DNA from: Pyropia haitanensis
Lineage: Eukaryota; Rhodophyta; Bangiophyceae; Bangiales; Bangiaceae
DNA length: 64,000 bases
Direction: 5' to 3'
NCBI GenBank assembly: GCA_008729055.1
Contig: SDUX01000001.1
Coordinates: 2,258,623 to 2,322,622, forward strand
The notes under the pieces were generated by a model. It searched no databases and was not told the origin of the DNA. It was given only the letters and a program-made list of their open reading frames with translations. Both the position numbers and the translations under genes were made by a program. Below, in pieces: positions 13,174 through 48,473 of this stretch (positions are counted from its first letter, which is position 1; each line of letters begins with the position of its first letter).

Positions 13174-14186
13174 GACGGCGTGCGGCGGGCCAGAGGGAGG
13201 TACGGATGGGGGGGGGGGGGAGGGGGGGGGCGCCGCCGCACCGCGCGGAGCGCGGCGGCAGAGGGCAGGTGGGGGGGGGCGGCGTGGGGGGGGGGGGGAG
13301 CGCCGCGAGCGCACAGGGGGTGGGGGGGGGGGGGAGCGTCGCGTGCGGACAAGAGGGGGGGGGGGGGGGGGGAGGCACCCGCAGAGATGGTGTGCGTTCT
13401 GGGCTTTGTGTACTTTGAGGCGCGGCGGGGGGAGGGGCCGCCGTCGGGGCGCGCGCCGGGACGCCGCCGCCGGTCGCGTGGGCGGCCGGGATCAAGGCCA
13501 CACGCGCGCAGCCGCGGCGGCGCCGCGAGCGCTCGCCACGGCGCCTCGGCACGATCGTCCGCCGCCTCATCGTCTGCAGTACATCGTTGGAGAAACCCGG
13601 TGCCCGCCAATTCCATTCCAGCAGTCTCCCCGCCGTTGGGTTGGGTATGGCGCGTGCGGTCGAGTCACCAAGAACGGACGCCAGCACCCCGCGGGCCGCC
13701 CCAGACCTATATGCCAGCCGCGTGCCGCTGGCGCGGTCCCCGCGCCCCACACACCAGCCGCACGACGCGGCGTTGCGCGCCAGGCAAGAGGGGGGTGGCT
13801 GACATCCCCCTCCGGCCCGCCCCCGTTGCGTTTGCGACGGCGGTCGCGTGCGCCGCCCGCCCCTCACCCCGCCCCCCCGCCGCCGCGCCAGCCTGCGTCG
13901 CCGGGATCGCGGCGCCGGTTGGGGCGCAGCAGGGAGACTGGGTGGCGACGGCCAGATCGTGGTCGCCGTCGTCCACCCCGGTTGCCGCCACCTTGCGCCG
14001 CTGCCGCCGCAGCGGCCGACGCCCCTCCCCCCCGGCCCTTGACTCGCGTGCTCGCCTCGTGCCACCTTTTTCTTTCTTTTTTTTGCGCGTGCGCTTGGGG
14101 GGCATCCTCCCCGTTTTGTCTCCTCTTGTTCCCTTCTGCCCCTCCCCCCTCCCGTCCTTCCCGGGGCCCTCGCCGTGGTTGCCACC
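13174..14186. other. Divergent promoter region, Su(z)12-like and RS-rich genes
   Basis: G-runs (13209-13233, about 13285-13298, 13325-13334, 13348-13370) lie next to the Su(z)12-like start. A less GC-rich part follows (about 13380-13800), then a pyrimidine tract with T-runs (14067-14085) just before the RS-rich start. No gene seen. Confidence 0.6.
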
Positions 14187-15757
14187 ATGTCGCGCTACGG
14201 GGACTACGACACGCGCAAGCCGTCGCGGTCGGGCTATGACGACTACTCCCCCCCGCCGCGGCGGCACGGCATTGGCCCCCCCGCGGGGGACTATGACTAT
14301 GACCGCCGCGGCCCGCCGCCGCGGGAGCGCGATTACGGGGGCGGCGGCCGCGGCCCGCCGCCGCGGCGGCCGCCCCCGCCGCCGGGCGACTATGACACGT
14401 ACCGGCCGCCGCCGCGGCGCGGCCCGCCCCCGCCGGGTGACTATGACACGTACCGGCCGCCGCCGCGGCGCGGCCCGCCCCCACCAGGTGACTATGACAC
14501 GTACCGGCCGCCGCCGCCACCGCCGCGGCGGGCGCCCCCGCCGCGCGATCCGTACGACACGGTCCGCGGCGCGCCGCCGCCGCTGCCGCGCTACGCCGCC
14601 GACCCGTACGAGACGGCCCGCGGCGGCGGGCCGCCGCCCCGCTACCGCGACGAGTACGACTCGGTGCGCGGCGGCGGGCCGCCGCCGCCGTCGCGCTACC
14701 GCGACGACTACTCGCCACCGCCGCGGCGGGGGCGGGGGGGGGGTATGGGAGCCCCGAGCGCCGCGGCGGCCGCCGCGGCGACCCGAGTGACAGCGAGTCG
14801 GAGGACGAGCGGCGGCGTCGGCGGTCCAAGGAGTCCAAGTCCAAGAGCACCAAGCGGTCGTCCAAGAGCGGCAAGTCGTCGTCGCGGAAAAAGGGCGACC
14901 GCAAGCGCTCGAGCGACAAGGACAAGAAGGGCAAGAAGAAGAAGCGCAAGGACGAGACGTCGTCGGACGATAGCGGTAGCGACAGCAGCGACAGCGACAG
15001 CGATAGCAGCAGCGTGAGCGGTTCGGCGTCGTCCAGCGGCAGCAGCAGCACGAGCGACAGCGACTCGTCGTCGTCGGACGGGCGGCGGCGGAAGGGCAAG
15101 TCGTCCAAGAAGGCCAAGGCCAAGGCCAAAAAGGCCAAGGCCAAAAAGGCAAAGGCAAAGGCCAAGCGCGACGCGAGCAGCACGGCGCTGGTCGTTGCCG
15201 GGCCACGGGCGCCACTCAACCCGTACGCCTCGGATGGGGATGACGACGGGGGGGCCGCCGCGCTGGGCGCGGCCGCGTTTGGGGAGCTGGACCTGATGGG
15301 GCCTGAGATTGACATCACCGGGGGGGGCACGAACGGGGCGACCGGCAACGGGGCGGGTGGTGCTGGCGGCGGCGGCGGCGGCGGTGGCGGCGTCGGTGGC
15401 TCTCTGGCAGGGCGCTTCCCCCAGGTGGGGTCTGTGATGCAGGTGGGCCCTGTCGGGGGGATGATGAATGGCGGCGGCGGCGGCGGGATGATGAATGGCG
15501 GCGGCATGGGCGGGGGGATCTTCCAGACGCCCATGGGGCCTGCGGTCATGACGCCCAACGGGCCGATGCCGCCGGCCATGGCGGCGCAGATGTTTGGGAT
15601 GGGCGCCGGCCCGGGCATGATGGGCGGCCAGCCGGGGGTGGCGGGTGGCGCGCCAGGGATGATGGGTGGCGGCATGGGCGGCGGGGCGGACGGCGGCTTT
15701 GGGGCGGGGGGGGCCCCTGGGGGTGGAGGGGTTGGCGGCGACTTGGGTACATTCTAG
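14187..15757 (+). CDS. Tyr/Pro/Arg-rich, RS- and Lys-rich, Gly/Met-rich low-complexity protein
   Basis: Not a family I can name; composition suggests an RNA-associated nuclear protein. ATG at 14187 sits in a perfect GCCACCATG context. Order: a DYD/PPPRR region with three exact-period repeats of GDYDTYRPPPRRGPPPP, RYRDEYDSVRGG-type units, then SDSESEDERRRRRSK, a Lys/Ser tract (KSKSTKRSSKSGK), a Ser/Asp stretch, a KAKAKKAKAKK tract, and finally a Gly/Met-rich tail (MMNGGG, GMMGGQPG) ending GVGGDLGTF. One frame change is needed at the G-run 14733-14740, after which the second half is open to the TAG. No RRM domain is visible. It converges on the Hint gene with only ~310 bp between stops. Confidence 0.75.
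14385..14537 (+). repeat. 51-bp coding tandem repeat, three copies
   Basis: Units begin at 14385, 14436 and 14487 (period 51 bp), each encoding GDYDTYRPPP and a Pro/Arg tail; copies are nearly identical, the third diverging at its end. Confidence 0.9.
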
Positions 15758-16070: not shown

Positions 16071-16434
16071 TTAACACACACGCCTTCCCCCTCTCAGAGC
16101 TCCACAATGTCCCGCCCGCGGGGCGCCAGTGTCGCCCACCACCCCCCCCACTCGGGAGCGACACCCCCCCCCCCCCAGCCGTGCCGCCACCGCCGCCACC
16201 GCCCGCACCAGCCGCAGCGCCGGCGCCGCCACCGCCGGCGCCACGGCGGTCGTGTACTCGCTCACCCACACGCCGTCGACGAGCAGGCCACCCCCCCCAC
16301 CCGTCGCGTGCGGGTTGTACAGCCCCTCCCGGACAACCGCCGCGACTGCCACTACCCGGGACAGGTCCCCCGACGCGAGCGTCAGCGCGTCGCCAACCGC
16401 CACGGTTGCAGCAGCAGCGAGGACGGCAGCGCCA

Positions 16435-16495
<61 letters not shown>

Positions 16496-16979
16496 GGACG
16501 ACGCGCAGGTAGTGACCTGGCGACAACGTGACGGCCGCCCCCGCGGCGGTGGTGAGCGTCACAAACGGGTGCGTGCCGGCCGCGGCGGCGTGGGAGAAAA
16601 AGTAGACCCGACCCGTCGCCGTCGGCGACACGCGCACCGCGTCGCCGAGTACGAGGTCGGCGATGCGCTTGGCACCCCCCCCTGCTCCCCCCTCCCCTCC
16701 AGCGAGCGCCACCATCGCGTCGGCGGGGAAGCACGCCGGGCCGTCCACGCGGCCCAGGCGGCCGTCCTCATTGTCATCGCCGCTCGCCACGTCGGGCAAC
16801 ACCACCGGCGGCGAGGCCGCCGTCGCGGTGGGCGTCGCGGCGGCCACGACGGGCACCTCATCCTCCACGTCGGGGGTGGGCGTCGGCGTTGGCGAAGCGT
16901 CCGCCGCCACCTCGGGGGTGGGCGTCGGCGTCGGCTCCTCCGCCGACGGCACAACGACGGGCACCGGCACGACGACGGT

Positions 16980-17018
<39 letters not shown>

Positions 17019-17712
17019 TGCCGGCGTCGGCTCTGGCGTCGGCGTCGGCGTTGGGTCTGACGCCGGCGTCGGCGTTGGCTCTGGCGTCGGCGTCTCGACG
17101 GCCGCCGGCGTCGGCGACGGCTTCGTGTCGGGTACCGCGTCCTCGGCGACGGGGGCGGTGGTCCCCCCGTCAATGGGCGTCCCCGACCGGTCGCTGGTAT
17201 ACGCGCACGGCTCGGTGGTGCCGTCTTGAAAGACGAGCATGTACCCGCCGTCGCGGGGGCTGAGGTTGGCAAACCCGGGCACGTTGACGTCTGCTGGCTC
17301 GTCCACAAACAGCACGATCGAGTTGTCCCCAAACACCCACCGCCCGCACACCCGCGCGCTGGCGTCGTAGCCAATGAGGAACGCCGCGCCGCGCGACTGG
17401 AGGTCCTCGTACACGCCGCGGAAGAGCGCGTTGTCGCGGAGGAGCGCGTCGAGGTCGGCCGACTCGCTCGCCGCGGACGACAGCACAATCATGGACGAGG
17501 CGCTCGTGCAGCGGGTGCCGTCGGCGCGGATGGAGCGGTGCGCAATGACCGCCACCTGCGACGACGGGTTCCGCACGCTGTCGTGCGACACGGTCGGCGG
17601 GCAGCTGGCCGACCGCTTGAAGCGGTTGAACGTCGTCCGCAGGTCCGCCACCGCAAACGTCCGTGCCGCCGGTGCGGGGAGGGTGGCCACCCCACCGGCG
17701 GCGCCCGCAGCA

Positions 17713-17745
<33 letters not shown>

Positions 17746-17823
17746 GCGGCCCTGCCGCCACCTCCGTCGGCGGCGCCATCGCCAAACGGGTGACCCCTCC
17801 CCGCCGCCGCGACCGTCACCGCC

Positions 17824-17872
<49 letters not shown>

Positions 17873-17954
17873 GCCCCGCCAGCCCCGCCGCGACGGCGAC
17901 GGCCGACACGGCCGACCGCCGCCGCCACCGCGGCCGCCTCGCCGTCAACGTCAT
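16071..17954 (-). CDS. Secreted protein with C-terminal Hint (Hedgehog/intein-type) domain
   Basis: Likely secreted and self-processing. I chose ATG at 17954 (MTLTARRPRWRRR) rather than the upstream GTG; it gives a basic then hydrophobic signal peptide. Next is a Cys-containing N-domain of unknown fold (LRTTFNRFKRSASCPPTV, GRWVFGDNSIVLFVDEP). A linker of PTPTP repeats and a run of 13 Asp follows. Then comes the Hint domain from about residue 408: CFPADAM with Cys (codon 16731-16733) as the expected nucleophile, RIADLVLGDAVRV, GTHPFVTLTTAAG with the TxxH-like His, LSPGHYLRVV, and GLYNPHATGGGGGLLVDGVW. Hint domains cleave at the bond before the Cys. The last ~40 residues are doubtful because a C-run at about 16166-16174 may shift the frame; an alternative end is at 16066. 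Confidence 0.8.
16979..17022. repeat. (GTC)n microsatellite encoding poly-Asp
   Basis: About 14 GTC/GTCG-frame units; on the coding strand they give 13 consecutive Asp in the Hint protein linker. Confidence 0.9.
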
Positions 17955-20443
17955 CGCCACCCACCGCCACCACCCGCGGCAGCCGCGTCAAGGTCTGGGG
18001 GCGCGCGCGGCGGGGGGTGGAGGCAGGGGGGGGGGGGGGGGGGGGGGGCCGACGACGAGGAGCGCAGGGGGGGGGGGGAAGTACGGCGGCGGCCGCGTGG
18101 GCGTCTGTGGAGGGAGGGGAGGAGCGGCGGGGAAAGCAGCGCACGGGGGGGGGGGGGGGGGGGGGGGAGGAGGGGAGAGAGCCGCGCGCCGCCCCCCCAG
18201 CGGCGCACGCCGGCGGGCCGCCGCGCGCGCACACCGCCGCGGGCGGGGACGCGGACAGCCGGGGCGGCCGCGCGGGCACGCCCGCGGCGGACGTGCGCGC
18301 GGCCGCGCGCACGCGCGCGCGCGCGCGCGCGGCGCGGCGGCCGCCGCCGCGGACAGTCGCGGCAGCGGCGGCGGCGGCGGCGGCGGCCGGGCGGCCGCCG
18401 CGCGCCGCACGGTGCGGGCGGGGGGGGGGGGAGGGGGGGACGACGCCCGCCGGCCGCGCGGCCGCGGCGCGCGCCGGCCGGCGGGCCGGCCGCAACGGCC
18501 AGGCGGGGCAGAGGGCGGGCCGCCACGGGTGGCGGCCGCCGTCCCTCCCCCCCCCCCCCCCCGCCCCTGCCGCGGCCGCCGGCAGCCGCTGGGGGTGGCC
18601 GCCACCCCGATCGGCCGCCGCCGCCGCCACGCGCCACCCCGTCGCTGTGGCCGTCGGGCCGCCGCTGCGCCGCTGTGGCCTGCGTTGGGAGGGGGGGCGG
18701 GTGGGGGGGGTGGGGGGAAAGGGGGGGGACGGAGGGGGGCGGGAGGGGATGGTGTCTGGCGGTAAATCGGGGATGCCACGCGGCCGAGGTGGTTGAGGGG
18801 GGGGGGGGGGGGTGGGGGGGGAGAGTGGAGAGTGGGTGCGCACCGGCCGCGCCTGCCGCCGCGGCGGCCGCCGACGCGCACGCGCCCCCCCCCCCCCGAG
18901 CGGCCGGCCGACGCACCAGACGTGGCGGCTGCCATGCCCGCCGCCGCTGTCTGTCGGCGGGGGTGCCGGCGAATCGCATTGGCGGCGCGCGCCCGCGGCC
19001 GCGGTCACGGCGGCGGTGGCGGTCGCGTCGGCGGGGGATCCGCCGTGTACATACCGACGCTGCCGCGGCGGCGGCTGGCGGGAGGGGCGGGGGGGGGGGG
19101 TGGGGGGGTGGGGGGGTGCGTGTGTGTGCGTCGCGGCGGCGGCGCCCATCGCGGCGCCGCGCCGCGGCGGCGGGCGGCGGCCGCCCGCGGCACCGCCGCG
19201 GGCCATGGCGCCAGACGCGTGGCGGGAAGTGGGGTTTGGCGGCGCGCCACGGGGCGGCGACGCCCGCGACGCGTGGGGGGGGGGGGGGGCGGCCGGGGGG
19301 GGGGGGGAGGTGGGAGGAGCGGGGGGGGGGGGGATGGTGCAGCAGCGGGGTGGGCGCGTCGGCGACGCCCGACGCGCGGGGGGGGGGCGGGACACCCCCC
19401 GCGGTGCCGCGGTGTGGCCCGCCGGCTGCGGCCGCCCCGTCGTGCGGGGCGTGCCCTCGCGGGGGGGCACGCCGCCTGGAGGGGCCGCCGCCCGCGGGTG
19501 GTGGCCGCCGCGCTGCCGCCGCCGCCCGGGCGGCGGGGGTGGCAACGACGCGGCGGCCGCCGTGGCGGCCGCCGCCGCCGCCGCCGCCGCCGCCGCGGCG
19601 GCGGCGTGGCCGCCCCGCCCCGCGCCGCGCCGCGCGCCGCCGTGGGGGGGGGGGGGCGGGGGTGAGCAGCCGCCCGTGGCGGGGTGGCCCGCTGCCGATA
19701 CGCGGCTGGCGGTGGGGGGGGTGGGGGTGGTGGCGGCTGATGGGGGGGGGGTGGCCGCGCGTGCCGCCGTGACGACGCGGCGGGTGGTGGCGGCTGGGGT
19801 GGTGGTGGTGGTGGTGGTGGTGGGGGGGGGGGGGGGGGGGGGGGTGGCGGCCGCGGCGGGGACCGCGTGGCGGCGGCGGCGGGCGGCGGGGGAGGGGGCG
19901 GCGGCGGCGGCGGCAGCGGCGGCGGCGCGCCCCCGTCGGCCGGCGGGTCGGCGCGGCGGCCGCGGCGGGCGGCCCGCCCGCGCGGCCCGTGCCGCGCGGT
20001 GGCCGCCGCCGTCCGCGCGGCCGGCTCGGTTCCCCCCGGTGCGCCGGTGGGCGTTGGCGGCGGGCCGCCGCTGCCCGCTGTCAGACCCCCCGCTCTGCCC
20101 TCGGTCTCCCCCCCCCGCGCGGTCGTCTGCCGCCGCGGTCCGTCACGCCGCGGTGCGCGTAGGCAGCTGTGCCCAACATTGGCCGCGGCGGCAGCACCGC
20201 CGGCGGCCCAACCCCTAGCCGCGCGGGGACCGTCTTGCCCTCGACGGTGCAGCTCAAGCCCACCACCCCCGGCTTTCCGTACCCGTCTGCCCCACCCCCC
20301 GCTGCTCCGCCTCCCCACCCACACGGCGCGAGGGCCCACCCCCTCCCTCCCTCCCCCCCCCCCCCCTCCCCCCCCGCCCCCGAAGCGCCCCTACTCTGTG
20401 CGCAACCTCCCCCCCCCCCCCCCCCCCCCCCCCCACCCCTCAG
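17955..20443. other. Intergenic low-complexity block between Hint and CRTAC1-like genes
   Basis: About 2.5 kb of CGG/GCC repeats, G-runs (18029-18049, 18148-18167, 18797-18811, 19279-19291, 19829-19842) and C-runs (20349-20372, 20408-20434). The stretch 20160-20290 is less repetitive, but neither strand gives a protein I recognise. Confidence 0.55.
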
Positions 20444-36596: not shown

Positions 36597-37327
36597 GGAC
36601 GGAGCGGGGGAACATGGGGGGGCGGGGAAGCCGGGAGAGACCTGGGGGGCAGCTCGTTGCCCGCATGCAAGAAAAAGACAAACGAGAGCACGGCACCAAA
36701 GCGTCGGCTACCGTTGGGGGGGGGGCGGCTGGCAGACCGGCGGCCGCCCGCGCAGTCGACGCTCTGCACCGGAGCGACGACGGTGGGGATTGCGTCGCCG
36801 GCCACCATGACCATCGTCCGCCCCCCCGCCACCGGCTTGGTACGCCCTGCCCACCCCTTCTGAGGGGCAGACGCCTCTGGTGTCCCCCACCCCACCCCTC
36901 CCAGAGACAAACTACAGGCGGGGACGAAGGCAGGTACACACGGTGCAAGAAGAGGTAGCCAAGAGAGACACTCATCGTCCTTGGCGGGAATCTCGGCTAT
37001 GTAAAGGTCAAAGTCGCTACAATGCCAGCCGACGTTGGCGCCACTCTCGAACCTGCGCTCCACCAATCACAGGTTGACACCGCGCGCAGGCGTCTGCAAC
37101 GTGGTACGCTGCCGCTCGGGCCTGCCCACGCGGGCCGCGGCCCCGACGCGACCAGCGTGACGCCGGCTACCGTCGCTCCAACCTCGGTCCCCCAACCCCC
37201 CCCCCCCCCCCAGCTTGTCGCATCGCAGTCCCGCTGCGCCAGTCCCCCTCTTCACCCCCACCCCCCCCCCATCCCCCCCCCCCCGCCGCGGCGGCCCGAT
37301 GCCTCGCCCCACCCCCCCCAAGCGCTG
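36597..37327. other. Intergenic upstream of BRCA2
   Basis: G-rich next to the previous stop, lower GC at about 36900-37060, then C-runs (37198-37212, 37261-37281) before the BRCA2 ATG. The BRCA2 frame is open back to 37022, but the extra residues are unremarkable. Confidence 0.6.
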
Positions 37328-37980
37328 ATGTCGACAGCGGGCACCCCAGCGGAGGACCCCATCGATGACACGCCGTGGGCGGCGTCCCCGCCGCGGCCGG
37401 CCGGCGCCGGCGGCGGCGACGCGTCGGCGGCGGACGGCTGGCTGCCGCCGCCGCTGGTTGTAGCCACCCCGGCGGGGCGATGGGGGGGAGCCGCCTGGGA
37501 CCCGGTCTGCCGGGTGGCCACGCTCGGCCTGCCGCCGACGGCCGCGCCGGCCGGCGGCGGTGGCGGCGGTGACGGCGGCGGCGGCGGCGGCGGCGGCGTC
37601 ACTCGGGCGGTGGCGCCGCCTTGGCGGCCGCCCGTCGCGGTCACGACGCCATTCCCGGCCTACCGGGGCCTCGAAGGCATCCGCTGGCGGGTGTCCACAC
37701 CTACCGCGCCCCAGCTGGCGGCCGCGGCGTCGACGACGGCGGCGGCGACGGGGGCGTCCCCCGCGCCGGCCGCCGCGACCGCGACGGGCGCACCCGGCGT
37801 CGGCGGTGCCACAGCCGTCACTCCCGGTCGGACGTGCCGGCGCGTGGTGCGCCGGCGGCAGCGGCCTGGCGGCGGCAGCGGCGGCGGCGCCGCCGCCGCC
37901 GCCGCCGACGCGGCACCCCAGGCGGTCGGCCTCGCCGCCGCCCTCGCCCGTGTGACCACTTCGTCTGCAGCCGCGGCGGT

Positions 37981-38011
<31 letters not shown>

Positions 38012-38345
38012 GCTGCACCTCCCACAACGTCGCGCAAACGGCGGCGCTCCCGGCGGGTGGTGCTGCCGCCCCGCCCGGGCGTGCCCCCCCCCGCCGCGGC
38101 CGCATCGGCGGCGCCGACCGCCGCCGCCGCCACCGTCACGGCCAGTGGTGCCGCGGGGGGTGGCGCCGCCGCGGCGCCGCCGTGGCGAGCCGCCGCGGCC
38201 GCGGCCGCCCGCGGCGGCGGGGGCGGCGGCGGCAAGCGCGCGCGGCGGGCGGCCGGGGGGCTGGCCCCGCCAGACGGCCGGCCGGGCTCCCCCCGCCGTG
38301 GCGGCCACAGCGGCCGCAGCGGCAGCAGCAGCAGCAGCAGCAGCA

Positions 38346-38392
<47 letters not shown>

Positions 38393-40900
38393 AGCGGCTG
38401 CGACAGCGGGGCGGCGTCGGCGTGCGGCTCGGTTGACGCGACGGGCGTGGGCGGCTGGGCGCCCCGCACCGCCGACGGGGACAGCCCGCCGCCCGGCTGG
38501 TGGGGGGTGGGCGGCTCGCCCGTCGCGCCGCCGCCGCCGGTGCCGTCGCCGGTGCCGCAGGTGCCGCCGCCGGCTCTGCGGTCCGCGACGGCCGCGCCCA
38601 CCAGCGGTGGCAGCGACGTTGGCTGGTCGCCCGCCGTGCGGCGGCGGCGGCGGCCGCCGCGGTCGCCCGTGTACGGGGCGTCCCCGTCGGCGGTGCCCGT
38701 GCCCGGGTGGGGGCTCCCGCCGGGGGTGGGGGAGGGGGGTGGCTCGGATGGTGGCCGGACACAGGGGGAGGAGGCGGACGATGGGGGGGACGAGCGAGAC
38801 TACATGCGGGCGGCTCCGCCGGCGGTGGGCACGGAGTGGGGGGGGGGTGGCTCGGCAGAGGAGGAGGATGGCAGCGGCCCGGGGCTGTTTGACAGCGGCA
38901 CCGACGATGGGCGTGGTGCGGGGCTGGGCGATGATGGCCGTGGCGCGTCGGTCGCGGACGGGAGTTGGGGGGAGGGTGGCTCGACCGCCGACGGCGCCGG
39001 TGGCGGCCTGGAGCCAGCCGTTCGCCGCGGCAGCGGCGACGGTGCAGCTACCCAAGACGCCGGCGCCGGCGCTCGCGTCGACGTGGGCGGCTCGGGCGGC
39101 GACGCGGGGGCGGCCGCCACGTGGGTGGGCGGCCTCGACTCGCAAGGCGGCTGGCGACCGACCGCGCCCGCCGCGGGCTACGGCCCGGCTGGGTGGGACG
39201 GAGACAGCATCTCGGCGGGCGGCTCTGGCCCCGGCGCGGACCCGGTCGATGCCAGTGGGGCCGAGTGGCATCGCCACCGCAGTCGCAGTCGGAGCTGGAG
39301 CCCAGGCCGCGGCCGCAGCCACAGGCGCAACCGCAGCCGCAGCCGCAGCCGCAGCCGCAGCCGCAGCCGCAGCCACAGCCCCAGCCCCAGCCGCAGCCAC
39401 AGCCCCAGCCCCAGCCGCAGCCGCAGCCCCAGCCCCAGCTTCTGCCGCACCCCGACGCCGAGCCCGCCGCCGAGTGCGGTGCCGAGCCACAGCACGAGCG
39501 TGGAGCTCAGCCCCGTGGCGAGCCCCGTTGCCCACCCCGCGGGGATCCCCGTGGCCAGCGGCAGCCACGCCCTCACGGGCACGGTCGTGGCGGCGAGCTT
39601 GGGGCGACCACGGGCGGACGCGCGGTTGGCGGCCCGCGCGGGCGGTGGGGCCACCCCCGGCAACGGCGCACCCCTCTCTCGACCGTGGCGTGCAGCTCAC
39701 CCCCGCCGGCCTGACGCGCCTCCTGTCGTGGTCGGCCCCGCTGGAGACCCCCCCGCGGCGACTGCCGCGCCGGCTGCCGCGGCCGCGGCTGTGCTTGGCC
39801 CCGCCGACGCTGGTGGCATAGCCGCCGTGGCGGCCGCCGATGCCGCCACCGCCGCCACCGCTGCCGCCGCCCACGCCGCGGCGGCTGCCGACGCCGCCGA
39901 CGCCGACGACATTGACGCGTTTTCACAGCCGCCAGAGCGGGTCGTCCCCCCCGCTGGCCGCGTCCGCCTGACGACCACCCCCGCGGGCGGCGCGCCGGCC
40001 TACTGCTCCCTGCTCGAAGGGGAGGTGGTGCCGCCGTCGGCGATTGGCGGCTCCTTTTCCGACGACGAGCCGCCGCCGCTGTGGCGGGGCGGGCCGTGGC
40101 GGACGTCGCTGCTCGTACCGCTGCGACCGGCCGGCGGCGGCGGCCAGCCCGCCCCGTGGGGGGGCGCGACGGCGACGGCGGCCGCCGCGGCCGCCTTCCC
40201 AAACCGTGCCGACGTTGCCGGCCTGGCGCCGGCGCTGCCGACCGTGTCGGAGCCGCCGGCGGGCGGGGCGTCCCCGCGGGCGGCGGTCACCTCTGGCGCG
40301 CCATCGTCCGACGCCCGCCCCACGACAGCAGCCACCCCCGCCACGTGGGCTGCCGGTGGTGGCGGGCCGTGGGCGGCGACGGCGGCGGAGGGGGGGTCGC
40401 CGGCGGGGGTGCGCGCCGCGGCCGCGTCGCCGGGCGCGGCGCCGCCCGTGGCGGCTACGCTGGGGGGGTTGGCGAGCGGCATGTGGGGCGGCACCGGCGT
40501 CGACGGTGGCGGCGACGACGCCGACGGCGGCGGCGGCGGCCGTGGTGGCGCCGTCGGTGGCGGCGGCGGGGGGGGAGGGTGGCCGCCTGCCGCCGCCGCC
40601 GCCGCACCGCCGGTCGGGCGGGTCCTGTTTGGTGGCCCCACCGACGGTTCCCCCCGCGCGGCGGCCGGCGGCGGCCGGCCACCGCTGCCGGCCGCGCCTG
40701 CCGCGGCTGACGGGCGGCTGGCCGTCGCCGCCGGTGGCCTGGCGGCGGCCGCGGGCCGCGGCTGGCACGCGTCGGCTGCCGGCCGGGCGGCGGCGGTCGC
40801 GGCGCTGGCCGACCTCGACGCGTTGGAGGCGGCGCCGGCGGCTCCGCTGCCGCCGCCGCCGCCATTGCTGGCGGGGAACCCCGCCGTCGGCAGGCCGCCG

Positions 40901-40934
<34 letters not shown>

Positions 40935-43558
40935 GGGCCGACGCGGCGCCGTTCATGCGTGTCCCGGCGGGCGCCGCACCACCCGTCGGTGGGGGCCTGC
41001 CGGCCGCACCGCCCGTCGGTGGGGGCCTGCCGGCCGCGCCGGCTGTGGCGGCGTCCGCGGCGGACGCCGCCGCCGCGGCCACCGCCGCGGCCACCGCCGC
41101 GGCGGCGGGCGGCGGGGACTCGCCCGCTACGGCCTTCCGCAAGCAGCTCCGCGGCGTCGTCGTATCGGCGGTGGGGGTGGCCGACGCCGCCGCGGCGCTG
41201 GCCGAGCTCGACGCCCCGGCCGCGCCACGGACAGCAGCCACGGCACGGGTGCCGCTGATGGTGGACGCTGTCGGCGGGGGGGGCTCGAAGGGGGGGGGCG
41301 GGGGGACGACGGCGGAGGGTCGCGGCGCCACCGCGGCCGCCGCGGCCTGGGCGCCTGCCGCCGGCGCCGGTGGTGCGGGCGCGGCGGGTGACCCCGGCGG
41401 CGGCGGCGCCAGCGCCGGCGCCGGCACAGGGTTCGCCACCGCCTCGGGGCGCGCCCTGCCGCCGGCGGGCGGTCGTGGCGGCTCGGGCTTTGCCACCGCC
41501 GCTGGCGGTGCGCTACCACCGCCGGCCGCCGGTGGCGGCGGCGTCGGCTTCCGCACCGCAGCCGGCGGTGTGCTGCCGGCGGCGGCGGCGGCGGGTCACG
41601 GCTTGGGCTTTGCGACCGCCGCCGGGCGCGCCCTGCCGTCTGGCGGTGGCGCCGGCTCTCCCACCGCCGCCGCCGGTCCGTTGGCGTCACGTGGCGGCCG
41701 TGGCGGGGTTGGCTTTCCCACCGCCGCTGGCGGCGCGCTGCCGCCGCCGGCGTGGGGTGGCGGCTCGGGCTTTACGACCGCCGCCGGCGGGGCGCTGCCG
41801 CCCGTCACCGGCGGCGGCGCCTCGGGCTTTGCTACCGCCGCGGGCGGCGCCCCGCCACCGGCGGCTGCCGGCGGCGGCTCGGGCTTTATGACGGCCGCCG
41901 GCGGTGCGCTGCGGCCGGCAGCCGGCGTCGGTGGGTCGGGCTTTACAACCGCCGCGGGCGGTGCGCTGCCGCCGCCGGCCGGTGGTGGCGGCTCGGGCTT
42001 CACGACCGCCGCCGGGGTTGAGCTGCCGCCGCCGGCCGGTGGCGGCGGCTCGGGCTTTACAACCGCCGCGGGTGGTGCGCTGCCTTTGCCGGCCGGTGGT
42101 GGCGGCTCGGGCTTTACAACCGCCGCGGGTGGTGCACTGCCGCCGCCGGCCGGTGGCGGCGGCTCGGGCTTCACGACCGCCGCGGGTGGTGCGCTGCCTT
42201 TGCCGGCCGGTGGTGGCGGCTCGGGCTTTACAACCGCCGCGGGTGGTGCACTGCCGCCAGCGGCGGGTGGTGGCGGCTCGGGCTTCACGACCGCTGCGGG
42301 TGGTGCGCTGCCTTTGCCGGCCTGTGGCGGCGGCTCGGGCTTTACAACCGCCGCGGGTGGTGCGCTGCCGCCGCCGGCCGGTGGCGGCGGCTCGGGCTTC
42401 ACGACTGCCGCGGGTGGTGCGCTGCCGCCACCGGCTGCCGGTGTCCCTGGCGGCGCCGCCGGCCCGGCCGGCCGCGTGCGGCTCCTCTCCCCCGCCCGCG
42501 GCCGGTCGTCCGTCTCGGCGGCGCTGCTCGGCCGCGCCGCCGCGCTCGGCGTCGGCGCCGCCACGGCGCGCACGCCCGCCGCGGCGGCCGCCGCCGCCGC
42601 CGCCGCCGCGGGCCGCCCGCCGCCGGCGTTTGCCGCGCCGCGGCGGCGGCTGGCGGGCGCCGCCGCCGCCGCGGCTGCCGCCGCTGCCGCCACTGCTGCC
42701 GCCGCCACCACCGCCCCTGCGGGCGGCGGCGCCGCCAGTGCTGCCGCCAAGGATGGCGCGGGCACGGAGGGCGGGGGGGGCGGCCAGCGGCCGCCGCTGC
42801 CGGCCGCCGCTGACACCGCGGCGGCGGCGCCGCCGCCGCCGCCGCCGCCACCCCGCACCGTGCTGCCAGCGGCGCTGCTGTCTGACGCGCAGGCGCTGCT
42901 GGCCGACCTGCCGCCGCCGGCGGCCGGCGCGGCCACCGCCGCCGCCGCCGCCGCCGCCGCTGCCGCCGCCGCCGACGGCGGCGGCGCGTCGCCGCTCAGC
43001 CGCGCCGCGGCGGCGCTGCGTGACCTCGGCGCGCCAGCGGGCGCCCCCCCCCCACCCGTCCGCGACGCCGTCCATGGTAGCCGCCAGGGCCGCCCCGCCG
43101 CGGCGGCCGCCCCCACCCCGCCGCCGCCGTCGCGGGGGGTGGCCCGCCGCTGGGCGCGGCGCCGCCCCGCGGCGGCGGCGCCGACCCGCACCGCGCGTTC
43201 CGCGCGCCGCGGCGGGCGGGGCGGCCGCGGTCCCCCCCCGGGGCGGCGCCGCCGCGGCCGACCGCCGGCGGCCGCCGCCGACCAAGGCCGCCGCGGGTGC
43301 GGCCGCGGCCGCGGCCGCGCCCGTCCCGCACGGCCGCATCGACGTGACGGGCGACCTGCGGCCGCCGCCGACGGCGCCGCCACTCGCCGTGGCCGGCCGC
43401 CACGCCGCGGCGGCACGGCCGCCGCTGCCGCCGCGGGTGCTGGCCGAGCTGGCGCCGCTGGTGCTCGGCGGGCCCGCCGCGTGTGCCGCCTACGCGTTGC
43501 CGGCCGACCGGTGGGACGCGCCCGCCGCGGCCGGCGCGGGGGGGGACGGCGGGGGGGG

Positions 43559-43589
<31 letters not shown>

Positions 43590-44786
43590 GCCGCCCTGCT
43601 CCGCCATTTTTGTACGTACTTTGGTACGCGCGGCGCGCTGGCGGTCGCGGCGGCGGTGCCGGGGGGGGGGGGGGGGGGGCGCATCGACGCTGCCGTCTTT
43701 GCCGCCGCCGTCGGCCGCCTGTTTGGGCGCGCCGACGCGGCGGCCGCCCCTGCGGCTGGCGGTGGCGGCGTGGCGGGCGGTGGCGGCGGCGGCGGCGCCG
43801 CCGCCGCCGCCGATGGTGGTGGCGCCGCCGCCGATGGTGGTGGCGCCGCCGCCGATGGTGGTGGCGCCGCCGCCGACGGTGCCAGCGGCGGCGCGGGTGG
43901 CCCCCCCGACGCCGACAGCACGGGCGGGTCGTCTGGGTCGGCGGGGTCCCCCCCCCTCCCCCCTCCTCTATCCGCGGCGCGCGGCGCGCGGGGAGCCCCC
44001 CCCCCCTCCCCCCCCCCCACCGCGACGGACGTGGGGAGCCCCCCCTGGGCGCGCCTGACGTACGCGCTGGCCGTCTGGTCGCTCGCGACGCGGGAGGCGG
44101 CGCTCCGCGCGCGCGCGCTGACGCTCCCCCGCCTCGTCCGGCGGCTCGCGCGGCGGGTGGCGGTCGAGTGGAACGCCGCCACCGCGCCGCCGCTGCTCGC
44201 CATTGCCCGCCGCGACGCGGTCGGCACGTCGGCGTACGTGCTTGCCGTGGCGGCCGTCACGGTGACGCCGCCCGGGGGGGGCGCCGCCCGCCGCGCCGCC
44301 GCGGGAGCCGCCACCCCCGCCGCCGCCGCGGCGGCCGTCGCCGCCACCGCCGACGCGGCCGCCGACGATGGCGCCGTTGCGCTCCTCACCGACGGCTGGT
44401 ACGTGCTGCGCGCGTCGCTCGACGCGCGCCTCGCGGCAGCCGTCCGCCGCGGCCGCCTCGCCATTGGCGACAAGCTGTGCGTCGCGTTTGCCGAGGCGGC
44501 CGCCGCCACCGCCACCGCGTCCGCCACCGCCACCGCCGCCGCCGCCGCCGCCGCGGCGGCGCCGCCGTTTTTCTTTGACGGCCCGCCGGGGGAGCTCGCG
44601 GCCACGGCGCTGGTGGTGCGGTCCAACAACGCGACGCGCGCGCCGTGGCACGCGCGCCTCGGCCGGCGGCGGCACCCGCCGGTGCGGACGCGCCTGGCCG
44701 CGGCGCGGGTGGGGGCGGGGCTGCTGCCGGCGGTGGAGGTGGTCGTGCAGCGGGCGCACCCGCTGAGCTTTCGGGAGGTGCTGGCT

Positions 44787-44856
<70 letters not shown>

Positions 44857-44983
44857 TCATTGTCCGCACCCACGCGGAGGAGGACGTGGCGGTGGCGGCG
44901 GCTGCGGCGGCCGCCGCGGCCGCCCGCGAGGCCGCCGCGGACGCCTATGCGCGTGCGCAAGCGCGGCTGGCGGCGGCGGCGCC

Positions 44984-45014
<31 letters not shown>

Positions 45015-45287
45015 GCGGTCGACGACCTTGCCGCCGCCGCCGCGGCGCCGCCGCCGCCCCGCGACGTGGCCGCCTACGCCGAGGCGCTCGTCTCGGACGT
45101 GGCCGGCCGCGTGTGGGCGCCGGTCGGCCGGTGGGCGCCGCCCGCGGCGGTCGCCGCGGCGCTCGCCACCGAGGGCGCCACCCTCCGGCTGTACGGCGTG
45201 GAGGTGCGCCGCGCGGCGTGGGCGGCGGCGCGGACGGGGGCGGGGTTTGAGCTCCGCCTCCGCCGCGGGTTTCCGGTCGTGCCGCTC

Positions 45288-45326
<39 letters not shown>

Positions 45327-46018
45327 CCCGCGGCGGCGTTTGTGCGCCGCACCGTGACGACCGCCGCGGCGCTGGTCGCGTGGCGGCAGGCCGGCCGCGC
45401 GTGCGGCGTCGACGCGGCGGGGGCCCCCGCGGCCACCGCCGCCGGCGCGGCCGCCGGCGCGGCCGCCCTCGTTGACGGCGCGTTTGTGGTGCTCCACGTG
45501 GGGGGGGAGGGGGACGCCGCCCGCCGGGTGGCCTTCCTCGCCGCCGACCCGTCGCCGGGCGCGCCGGTGCTCGCGGTTGTGCTCGAAGGCGAAACCGCCC
45601 GCGCGCCGCCGCCGCCGCTGCTCGCCGCCGCCGCCGCGACGGTGGCGGCCGCGGCGGCGGCCGCCGCCGCCACCGCCGCCCCTGCCGTCCCCACCGCCGC
45701 CACCCCCGCCGCCACCGCCACCGCCACCACCACCACCACCGCCACCGCCACCACCACCACCGCCACCACCACCACCACCACCACCACCGCCGCCGCCGCC
45801 GCCACCACCACCGGCAGCGGGCGCACCCGACCGGCGGCGGCGGCGCCGCCCCCCCCCCCCTGGGGCGTCGTCGCCGTGCGGGACCTGGACGCTGGCGCCG
45901 CCGACGGCGAGATGGTCCTCGCCGCGTCCACGCGGCGGACGCACTGGCTCGGCGCCGCCGACCTGCGCCGCCGCGCCGCCGCGGAAGCACGCGCCGTGGC
46001 ACGCCGGGGGGGGGGGGG

Positions 46019-46050
<32 letters not shown>

Positions 46051-46067
46051 AGGTGCCGCCGCCGGTG

Positions 46068-46113
<46 letters not shown>

Positions 46114-46189
46114 GCCAGTGCCGGCCGCGCCGGCGGCGCCGCCGTGCGCGGCGGCCGCGCCGTCGTCCGCCGCGGTGGACGGCGCGCCG

Positions 46190-46220
<31 letters not shown>

Positions 46221-46234
46221 CACCGCCGCCACCG

Positions 46235-46276
<42 letters not shown>

Positions 46277-46438
46277 ACGCCGTGGGCGGACCTGGCCGCC
46301 GCGGCGGCGGCGGTGGCGGCGCGCTTTGCCGGCGCCCCCGCCGACGCGGCGCTGTCGCGCGAGGCGGTGGTGGCGGTCGCGGCGGGCCGGGCGCCGTCGG
46401 TGGGGCGGTACGTGCTGGGCAGCCAGCTCGGGCCGTGA
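37328..46438 (+). CDS. BRCA2: BRCA2 homolog with a 19-residue BRC minisatellite
   Basis: Mediator of homologous recombination that loads RAD51 on single-stranded DNA. About 3,037 codons, apparently intronless. From ATG 37328: Ala/Gly-rich disordered region; an RS/PSPS stretch at about residues 645-715; and a second disordered part (ADADDIDAFSQPP). The array of 18 FxTAxG units follows (residues ~1368-1708), then an FRAPRRAGRPR motif. The DNA-binding part has WARLTYALAVWSLATREAAL then LVRRLARRVAVEWNAA (helical domain end) and LLTDGWYVLRASLDARL, then GRLAIGDKLCVAFAE (OB1). Next are RSNNATRAPWHARLG, VVVQRAHPLSFREVL, a poly-Gly tract, a helical tower-like segment and RLYGVEVRRAAWAAARTGAG. The end is SVGRYVLGSQLGP. 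Frame changes lie near C-runs at ~43047 and ~43232 and a G-run at 46007-46019. Human BRCA2 is 3,418 residues. Confidence 0.88.
39268..39460 (+). repeat. RS-type coding repeat within BRCA2 (AGCCGC units)
   Basis: Tandem AGCCGC/AGCCCC units encode alternating Arg-Ser then Pro-Ser, in frame with the BRCA2 ORF (HRHRSRSRSWSPGRGRSHRR and following). Confidence 0.85.
41429..42451 (+). repeat. 57-bp minisatellite encoding 18 BRC-like (FxTAxG) units
   Basis: Eighteen head-to-tail 19-residue units of the form GFTTAAGGALPPPAGGGGS. By eye 17 keep the F-x-T-A-[AS]-G core, with x = A, R, P, T or M; unit 5 is degenerate (SPTAAAG). First units are more diverged (one is FATASGRAL, closest to classical BRC); the last nine are nearly identical. 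The FxTA core is what BRC repeats insert into RAD51. Confidence 0.92.
42071..42412 (+). repeat. 114-bp higher-order repeat inside the BRC array (three copies)
   Basis: A dimer of two 57-bp units (PLP-type then PPP-type spacer) starts at 42071, 42185 and 42299, nearly identical across copies. Confidence 0.88.
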
Positions 46439-47237: not shown

Positions 47238-48473
47238 CTAGACGACCGAGGCCAGCTGGCCGCGCAACTCGCCCGCGCGGAACGCTTGCGAGTGGATGTC
47301 CGAGTAGATCATGCCCATCCGCAGCTCGTCCACGAGCGTGTCGTTGAAGCGGAACGTGTTCTTCGACAGCATAAAGTCGCCGGCCGTGTCGTCCATCGAC
47401 TTGTCCGCGACGAGCTCCCGCACGCGCGGGCCGGCGCCGTCGGCGGGGCCATTGTGCAGGTGGGTGCCCATGGCCAGGTCCACCGCCACCTCGGCCGACA
47501 GCATCGAAAAGGAGCCCGTCACGGCAATCGTGTTGGGGAAGAAGTACTCGGCCGTCACGCCGCCCGTCGCGTCCGAGCCCATCGCCGGCGGGTTGACCGC
47601 CCCCGGCGTCAGGAGGGTGGTGTAGGCCGACGACGAGGCGGCCGACAGCACCTGCCCGCGGAGCTCACCCGTCGGCAGCTTAAGTGAGTGCACGTCCATG
47701 TACACGCCACGGTTCTTCATCATCATGAGGAACTCGGCGGTGGGCATGTACGTGTTCTTGTCCGCCGTGTAAAACGCGGTCGTGTTGTTGTCGCTCAGCG
47801 TCGGCTGCAGCTCAAAGATGCGCTGCCCGTTGGTGCCCGTCAGCCCAATGTGGAAGTGGTTGCCGTTGGCCAGGTTGAGCGCCAGCGGCGACGACAGCCC
47901 CTGCCACGAGCCGGTGACGATCATCGCGCCCGTCGGCATCAGCTCCACAATGATGCCCCCAAACGCAGAGCTCATCGTCGGCGGGTTGGTAAACGCCGAC
48001 GACAGCGACGCGGACATGGTCTTGGCGCCCGCCACCGCCGGCACCAGCTGGCCGCGCAGCTCCGAGCCGACGAGGAGGTAAAACTCGCGCGCCTCGAGCA
48101 GCATCACCTGCCGTGCGCTCAGCTTCATCATGGCCTTGCCCTCCCCACTCTTGTGGCCCGCCCCAAACTTGGTCGCGTACGTCACGCTAAACTGCTCGTG
48201 GCCGTTGCGGCCCGCCCACGCGGCGTACAGGCCAACCGACTTGACGCCGGCGGCGAGGCCGCGGAAGTGAAACTTGATCGTCAGCATCATGCTGTCGCTG
48301 TCGTACGAGCCCGTCACGGTGCCCGTGCCGAGCGCATTGACGGGCGGGACCATCTGGTGGCCCGACAGGTAGCCAATGTAGTTGCCCGCGTGCGCGGCGG
48401 TCGCCGTCGTTGCCGCCGATGCGGCCACGGCGAGCGCCGCCACCGCCGCGGCGGCCAGCTTGGTGAACGCCAT
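47238..48473 (-). CDS. Secreted protein with three tandem CHRD domains
   Basis: CHRD domains were first described in Chordin and occur in secreted proteins of many organisms; the role here is unknown. ATG at 48473 gives a signal peptide (MAFTKLAAAAVAALAVAASA, cleavage likely near ATAAHAG). Three repeats follow, each starting with a strand carrying a PP motif and ending in GELRGQ-like: GYLSGHQMVPPVNALGTGTV ... VGSELRGQLVPA; SSAFTNPPTMSSAFGGIIVE ... LPTGELRGQVLSA; LLTPGAVNPPAMGSDATGGV ... FRAGELRGQLASVV. Conserved internal His (NHFHIG, THLHNG) fit the family. Length 411 residues, intronless, unbroken, with low Ala/Gly content compared with neighbours. A TATA box lies 143 bp upstream. Confidence 0.93.
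   Translation of the reverse strand: MAFTKLAAAAVAALAVAASAATTATAAHAGNYIGYLSGHQMVPPVNALGTGTVTGSYDSDSMMLTIKFHFRGLAAGVKSVGLYAAWAGRNGHEQFSVTYATKFGAGHKSGEGKAMMKLSARQVMLLEAREFYLLVGSELRGQLVPAVAGAKTMSASLSSAFTNPPTMSSAFGGIIVELMPTGAMIVTGSWQGLSSPLALNLANGNHFHIGLTGTNGQRIFELQPTLSDNNTTAFYTADKNTYMPTAEFLMMMKNRGVYMDVHSLKLPTGELRGQVLSAASSSAYTTLLTPGAVNPPAMGSDATGGVTAEYFFPNTIAVTGSFSMLSAEVAVDLAMGTHLHNGPADGAGPRVRELVADKSMDDTAGDFMLSKNTFRFNDTLVDELRMGMIYSDIHSQAFRAGELRGQLASVV

Follow-up and report, generated by a model that had tools for sequence, protein, structure and literature searches.

Results

Layout and conservation of the array

The window analysed here is a 64-kb stretch of Pyropia haitanensis DNA, from an assembly of 52.9 Mb in 136 contigs. 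It holds a long tandem array of short FxTA-containing units. The features in and around the array are the following.

37022..43074, + strand: frame-2 reading frame holding the array, Gly/Ala/Pro-rich, likely the N-terminal part of a BRCA2 gene
41129..41206, + strand: possible full-length but degenerate BRC repeat ahead of the array (F-R-K-Q, then a second-module-like helix)
41429..42451, + strand: array of 18 units, consensus S-G-F-x-T-A-A-G-G-A-L-P-P-P-A-G-G-G-G (57 bp)
41654..41701, + strand: unit 5, a degenerate unit of 16 residues without the Phe (S-P-T-A); predicted to lack RAD51 binding
41711..41767, + strand: unit 6 (F-P-T-A), likewise predicted to lack RAD51 binding
41939..42451, + strand: units 10-18, young and alike, partly alternating between TTT-ACA and TTC-ACG, 9/9 with GFTTAA
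42503..42556, + strand: second-module-like segment directly past the last unit; ranks second in the ORF by second-module score, under the 95th percentile of shuffle maxima
42854..42907, + strand: second-module-like segment ending L-L-A-D; fourth-best second-module score of the ORF, below the same percentile

The initial annotation had described 18 head-to-tail units of about 19 residues, 17 of them with F-x-T-A, and this is what the array contains: 18 in-frame units in frame 2, with unit 5 as the only one to depart from F-x-T-A. Unit starts are spaced by 19, 20, 20 and 16 residues and then thirteen times by 19, so all changes in array length have been whole codons. The longer pattern F-x-T-A-x-G-x-x-L is present in 16 of the 18 units, and F.TA.G..[LV] is likewise fitted by 16. 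When the residues of the array were shuffled 2,000 times, F.TA.G..L never matched more than once, and in the six frames of the window F.TA occurs elsewhere only nine times. Phe makes up 17 of the 341 residues in the array, against 10 of 1678 in the remaining frame-2 ORF (Fisher p = 8e-8), within a composition dominated by Ala, Gly and Pro. The hexapeptide GFTTAA is found in 10/18 units, and unit 1 reads GFATASGR.

Across the 17 units that retain the Phe (F-units), G(-1), F, T(+2), A(+3) and G(+5) are invariant as amino acids, and variation in their codons is confined to the third position: Phe is encoded by TTT in 11 units and TTC in six, and the variants include ACC, ACG and ACT for Thr and GGC, GGT and GGG for Gly. 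These five core codons carry no extra base states at positions 1 and 2 and eight at position 3, compared with 14 and 15, respectively, in the other seven codons (Fisher p = 0.015). Over the first 12 codons of all 18 units, pairwise differences by codon position 1/2/3 amount to 248/196/749. In an ungapped comparison that excluded unit 5, the older F-units (1-4 and 6-9) show 14-25 mismatches per 57 bases to adjacent units, with the core kept; units 10-18, compared at a lag of two units, show 2-7 differences per 57 bases, and 18 in the last pair. Leu at F+8 and Pro at F+9 are each found in 16 of the 17 F-units and are thus nearly as conserved as the core. Given this and the Ala/Gly/Pro dominance, part of the conservation may reflect recent copying.

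Comparison of the units with BRC repeats

A BRC repeat consists of a first module, the FxxA hairpin, and a second module, an amphipathic helix that lies some 20 residues past the Phe and ends in LFDE-like residues. The BRC repeat profile PF00634 gave no match at E<=10 in positions 41120-43096 of the window (the scan filters drop most matches above about 0.1) and none anywhere in the genome in a profile search; a BRC profile that we built ourselves, run with filters off, gave no match either. We scored the second module with columns derived from 25 BRCA2 proteins, which supplied 130 seed repeats. The best second-module score of each of the 18 units fell between -31.9 and -45.5, whereas the seeds have a median of 49.1 and a minimum of 22.2; since all units score so far below the seeds, the second module is absent. 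The features of the first module are kept: the turn Gly at F+5, two residues past the Ala, is present in 17/17 F-units, and the hydrophobic residue that closes the hairpin is the Leu at F+8. By first-module score the best value in the array (12.0) lies below the best of 200 shuffles (13.6), and within the ORF the array units hold 17 of the top 18 places. Judged by sequence, the units are FxxA-hairpin modules only, that is complete first modules and not canonical BRC repeats. The earlier impression that no second module is visible thus applies to 18/18 units, and the description of the units as BRC motifs is right for the FxxA, the turn Gly and the F+8 residue but not for a full repeat of the PF00634 kind.

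The segment at 41129..41206 has the third-best second-module score of the frame-2 ORF and the second-best first-module score outside the array. As a candidate BRC repeat it is only suggestive, scoring below the 95th percentile of shuffle maxima.

The downstream DNA-binding domain and a DSS1 candidate

43075..43210, + strand: switch of reading frame from 2 to 3, through an intron or assembly indels, placed by the codon-score profile; run of 10 C just upstream
44037..44783, + strand: end of the BRCA2 helical domain and OB1, frame 3
44679..45302, + strand: OB2-like fold with two long inserted helices (tower-like); model mf89520bd7f29, residues 208-415, best chains 1iyj_B, 1miu_A and 1mje_A
45303..46438, + strand: likely C-terminal part, possibly OB3, from the codon-score profile and low-confidence model strands

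The BRCA2 OB1 profile PF09103 matched at 44193-44669 (E=8.6e-17; 61.6 bits against a cut-off of 25.6), and 44037..44783 aligned with PDB entries 1mje, 1miu and 1iyj (E=6e-11 to 6e-10). A profile from 17 BRCA2 DNA-binding domains gave E=7.5e-29 in a single-sequence search, fold searches ranked BRCA2-DSS1 structures first, and this OB1 locus is the only one found in the genome. The helical-domain profile PF09169 was not reported by Pfam at E<=10; the C-terminal part of that domain aligns to the BRCA2 PDB chains and to the BRCA2 DNA-binding-domain profile. The BRCA2-type OB-fold sequence that had been proposed downstream of the array is confirmed by profile, structure and fold matches. The two long helices occupy model residues 272-329 within the OB2-like fold, and the strands of the possible OB3 region (521-542) have pLDDT <50. 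The C-terminal part runs in frame 3 to about 46.0 kb and then in frame 2 to a stop at 46436-46438, with frame 1 scoring best at 46155-46289. Past it, on the minus strand, the product of a neighbouring gene (47241-48473) contains three CHRD-domain stretches (PF07452, E=1.1e-39).

A DSS1 candidate elsewhere in the genome (L011) scored 31.6 bits against PF05160 (E=9.3e-6; cut-off 32.2) and 29.9 bits on a second scan, and its acidic segment aligns to SEM1 (E=0.004).

Reading frames

The longest open run in frame 2 is 2539 codons, against a maximum of 1992 and a median of 811 in 300 first-order Markov shuffles. GC content is 0.66-0.87 per 2-kb stretch of the window; GC-rich DNA makes open frames cheap, and the ORF by itself therefore proves little. 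A codon model trained outside the frame-change stretch favours frame 2 up to about 43070 and frame 3 from about 43210. Between about 43075 and 43210 both frames score negative, with frame 1 positive at 43120-43209, and an intron or assembly indels must therefore lie there; either an intron or indels near homopolymer runs would explain the change. The array had been placed in a single ORF continuing into the OB-fold sequence; this is not the case, since frame 2 encodes the array and frame 3 the domain.

Upstream of the array, the frame-2 ORF contains an Arg-Ser-rich stretch (39269-39469, + strand) that is unusual for BRCA2 and scored 25.2 bits against PF06495 (E=2e-5), below the 26.7-bit cut-off. 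It may have a separate function or belong to a separate gene.

RAD51 of the same genome

A single full-length RAD51 (L001) was found in the genome, identical to human RAD51 at 229 of 323 residues. Its linker reads MGFTTAAIKHQ, in which the self-joining motif GFTTAA (GFTTAT in human RAD51) is the hexapeptide of 10/18 units. Beyond the general motif only two of its six positions carry information, and the identity alone is thus suggestive. In the pockets as generally delimited, L001 matches human RAD51 at 6/7 positions for Phe (M158L) and 4/5 for Ala (L186M), and differs at 4/8 for LFDE (Y205R, S208A, M251A and L255I). Plant RAD51 also differs at the LFDE pocket and plant repeats nonetheless keep the second module, so the change counts as consistent evidence and not as proof. 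Y205 and M251 are named as LFDE-pocket residues in PMC9162458, which gives Leu and Ser at these positions in Leishmania RAD51; the same two positions are altered in L001. The RAD51 self-association motif runs into a short helix, as described in PMC5117717, whereas in the array the motif is followed by a Gly turn like that of BRC repeats.

A diverged RAD51 paralogue, XRCC3-like by eye, lies at L002:847-1893 (- strand), and a PF08423 search of the genome gave no match to a separate DMC1.

Other repeats and genes

Of nine matches in a genome search with the array, one is the array itself, seven are other loci (L004-L010) and one is a row without a locus. F.TA is absent from all frames of the seven loci. 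They are GC-rich minisatellites on small contigs (L004, L006 and L008 on C33, L010 on C94, L005 and L007 on C96, L009 on C77), with units such as RRRQVVAVGGGRRPAPPPPP.

Elsewhere in the window, an ORF at 16071-17960 (- strand) contains CFPADAMVALAGG...GHYLRV, which we take to resemble a hedgehog-type Hint domain, and a 51-54 bp tandem repeat at 14175-14711 (+ strand) encodes D-Y-D-T-Y-R / P-Y-D-T-V-R units in a Pro-rich ORF without a Pfam match at E<=0.01. Large contigs of the genome carry 11 phycobilisome-linker matches, which points to a red alga. A partial phycobilisome-family match (L013:1501-1764; PF00502, E=4.8e-17) lies 3.5 Mb along contig C11 and is therefore likely nuclear.

Discussion

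The array shares with canonical BRC repeats (PF00634; human BRC1-8) the FxTA, the Gly two residues past the Ala, an aliphatic residue at F+8 and a position N-terminal to an OB-fold domain. It differs in that canonical repeats are about 35 residues long and carry the second module. We set the spacing against 39 other BRCA2 proteins, all of which were used, with a broad motif that yielded 276 gaps. The median is 56 residues and the 5th percentile 38, and the five gaps of <=25 residues appear to be overlaps or chance matches. The very high copy number and tandem layout that had been claimed are real but not unique to this array. Tandem arrays occur in other BRCA2 proteins (for example P0006, in 56-residue steps; P0024, 47; P0041, 41-43), two bivalve proteins have 19 and 20 motifs, and in T. 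brucei 15 tandem repeats were predicted, with 11 per allele on re-mapping that strain (PMC2408642). The last case warns that repeat numbers taken from an assembly can be off. As number and layout have precedents, the distinctive part is the 19-residue unit made of the first module only. The T. brucei array described in PMC2408642 likewise has many similar head-to-tail repeats, one diverged at one end, and a recent expansion, but its units are 44 residues long and include the whole 35-residue BRC motif.

We consider that the array is the RAD51-binding part of a BRCA2 ortholog, with a probability of roughly 70%: its repeats consist of the first module alone, and the intact units are predicted to dock their Phe and Ala in the way neighbouring RAD51 protomers contact each other. 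Units 5 (SPTA) and 6 (FPTA) are probably dead as RAD51 binders, the latter because the FPTA tetrapeptide had no affinity in PMC4855620, which would leave 16 of 18 units competent. The same source gives 113 μM for FHPA, almost threefold better than FHTA, and binding at 0.1 mM or weaker for such tetrapeptides, and a 16-residue RAD51 linker peptide bound RadA surrogates at 24 to 0.8 μM (PMC5117717).

Leishmania infantum BRC1, as described in PMC9162458, also makes no LFDE contact and retains high affinity without its LFDE equivalent; its F+8 residue, Val121 (Phe113+8), lies in the second strand of the hairpin, and the TASGK turn that it shares with human BRC4 resembles the TASGR of unit 1. Unlike the units here, whose RAD51 binding is predicted, the two Leishmania repeats have longer C-terminal portions, which still add affinity, and a repeat cut back to Gln129 (F+16) bound at only 8.7 μM (PMC9162458). 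The hairpin of our unit ends at about F+8, and the affinity of a single unit may therefore be very low. In Physcomitrium patens (PMC12412785) the BRC repeats are packed consecutively, as in P. haitanensis, and avidity is strong: single repeats bind at 0.4-0.8 μM and four packed repeats at 4.3 nM, about 100-fold tighter. By that account, moss BRC3 has lost binding through Ala in place of the Gly after FxxA and is partly rescued when the Gly is restored. Unlike P. haitanensis, the moss protein is described as having four repeats with a second, dihydrophobic module, and no canonical DNA-binding domain.

Most likely, then, the array would serve as a multivalent RAD51 carrier built from first modules only. 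A single unit would bind RAD51 weakly, and avidity would come from as many as 16 competent units (all but SPTA and FPTA) on one string rich in Pro and Gly. The string would hold RAD51 protomers side by side and block their self-polymerisation off DNA, the downstream OB folds with DSS1 would place it on ssDNA, and the weakness of each contact would let RAD51 pass to its own filament there. A 19-residue stretch can reach about 65 Å at most, which suffices for RAD51 cores lying next to each other. We propose that dropping the second module made the 19-residue spacing possible; a similar argument has been put forward in PMC9162458 for the two Leishmania repeats, which are only about 6 residues apart and may need a vacant C-terminal half. 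A bolder step, tentative and to our minds rather doubtful, is that a BRCA2 with FxxA modules alone uses copies of the zipper motif of its own recombinase, set 19 residues apart, to line up as many as 16 RAD51 protomers in advance, so that a filament nucleus stands ready. Such a protein would put to a natural test the idea that BRC repeats started out as FxxA-only mimics of RAD51.

The array could also be neutral, a GC-rich minisatellite within a disordered part of BRCA2, with the FxTA inherited from a founder unit and kept only as the copies are recent. The close likeness of units 10-18, the Ala/Gly/Pro dominance and the other GC-rich minisatellites in open frames of this genome speak for this reading. 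However, the older F-units are well diverged and yet have changed only silently at F, T, A and G, Phe is rare in the rest of the ORF, the seven other loci have F.TA in no frame, and the array sits at the position of BRC repeats and matches the local RAD51 motif; we regard neutrality as unlikely. Somewhat less probable again is that the array acts mainly as an inhibitor or filament-end cap, filling the FxxA pocket and stripping or stopping filaments instead of carrying RAD51 to DNA. BRC repeats are reported to disrupt filaments (PMC11436757), moss BRC proteins at higher concentration to inhibit filament assembly (PMC12412785), and the unit copies the RAD51 self-joining motif. On the other hand, single units should compete poorly with RAD51 polymerisation when they lack the second module, and a likely fusion to a domain that binds ssDNA, in a genome with a DSS1 candidate, is the layout of a loader. 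That array and domain are two adjacent genes, as their different reading frames might suggest, is very improbable, since they share a strand and the BRCA2 order, GC does not fall over the ~1.7 kb from array end to OB1, and the stretches that codon scores mark as coding lie just ~0.14 kb apart; one gene is therefore likely.

If the carrier reading is correct, avidity can stand in for the second module in a natural BRCA2 with many units of the first module only. BRC repeats are presented in PMC9162458 as two-module RAD51 binders whose LFDE part is required for RAD51 function in human cells, and the array bears on the proposal made there that they arose from an FxxA-only ancestor. Mice are reported to be viable with a single BRC repeat, the extra repeats being linked to resilience to oxidative stress (PMC12803100), and the array also bears on why many repeats are retained. 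Finally, an array of this kind would allow probing of how tightly RAD51 packs on BRCA2.
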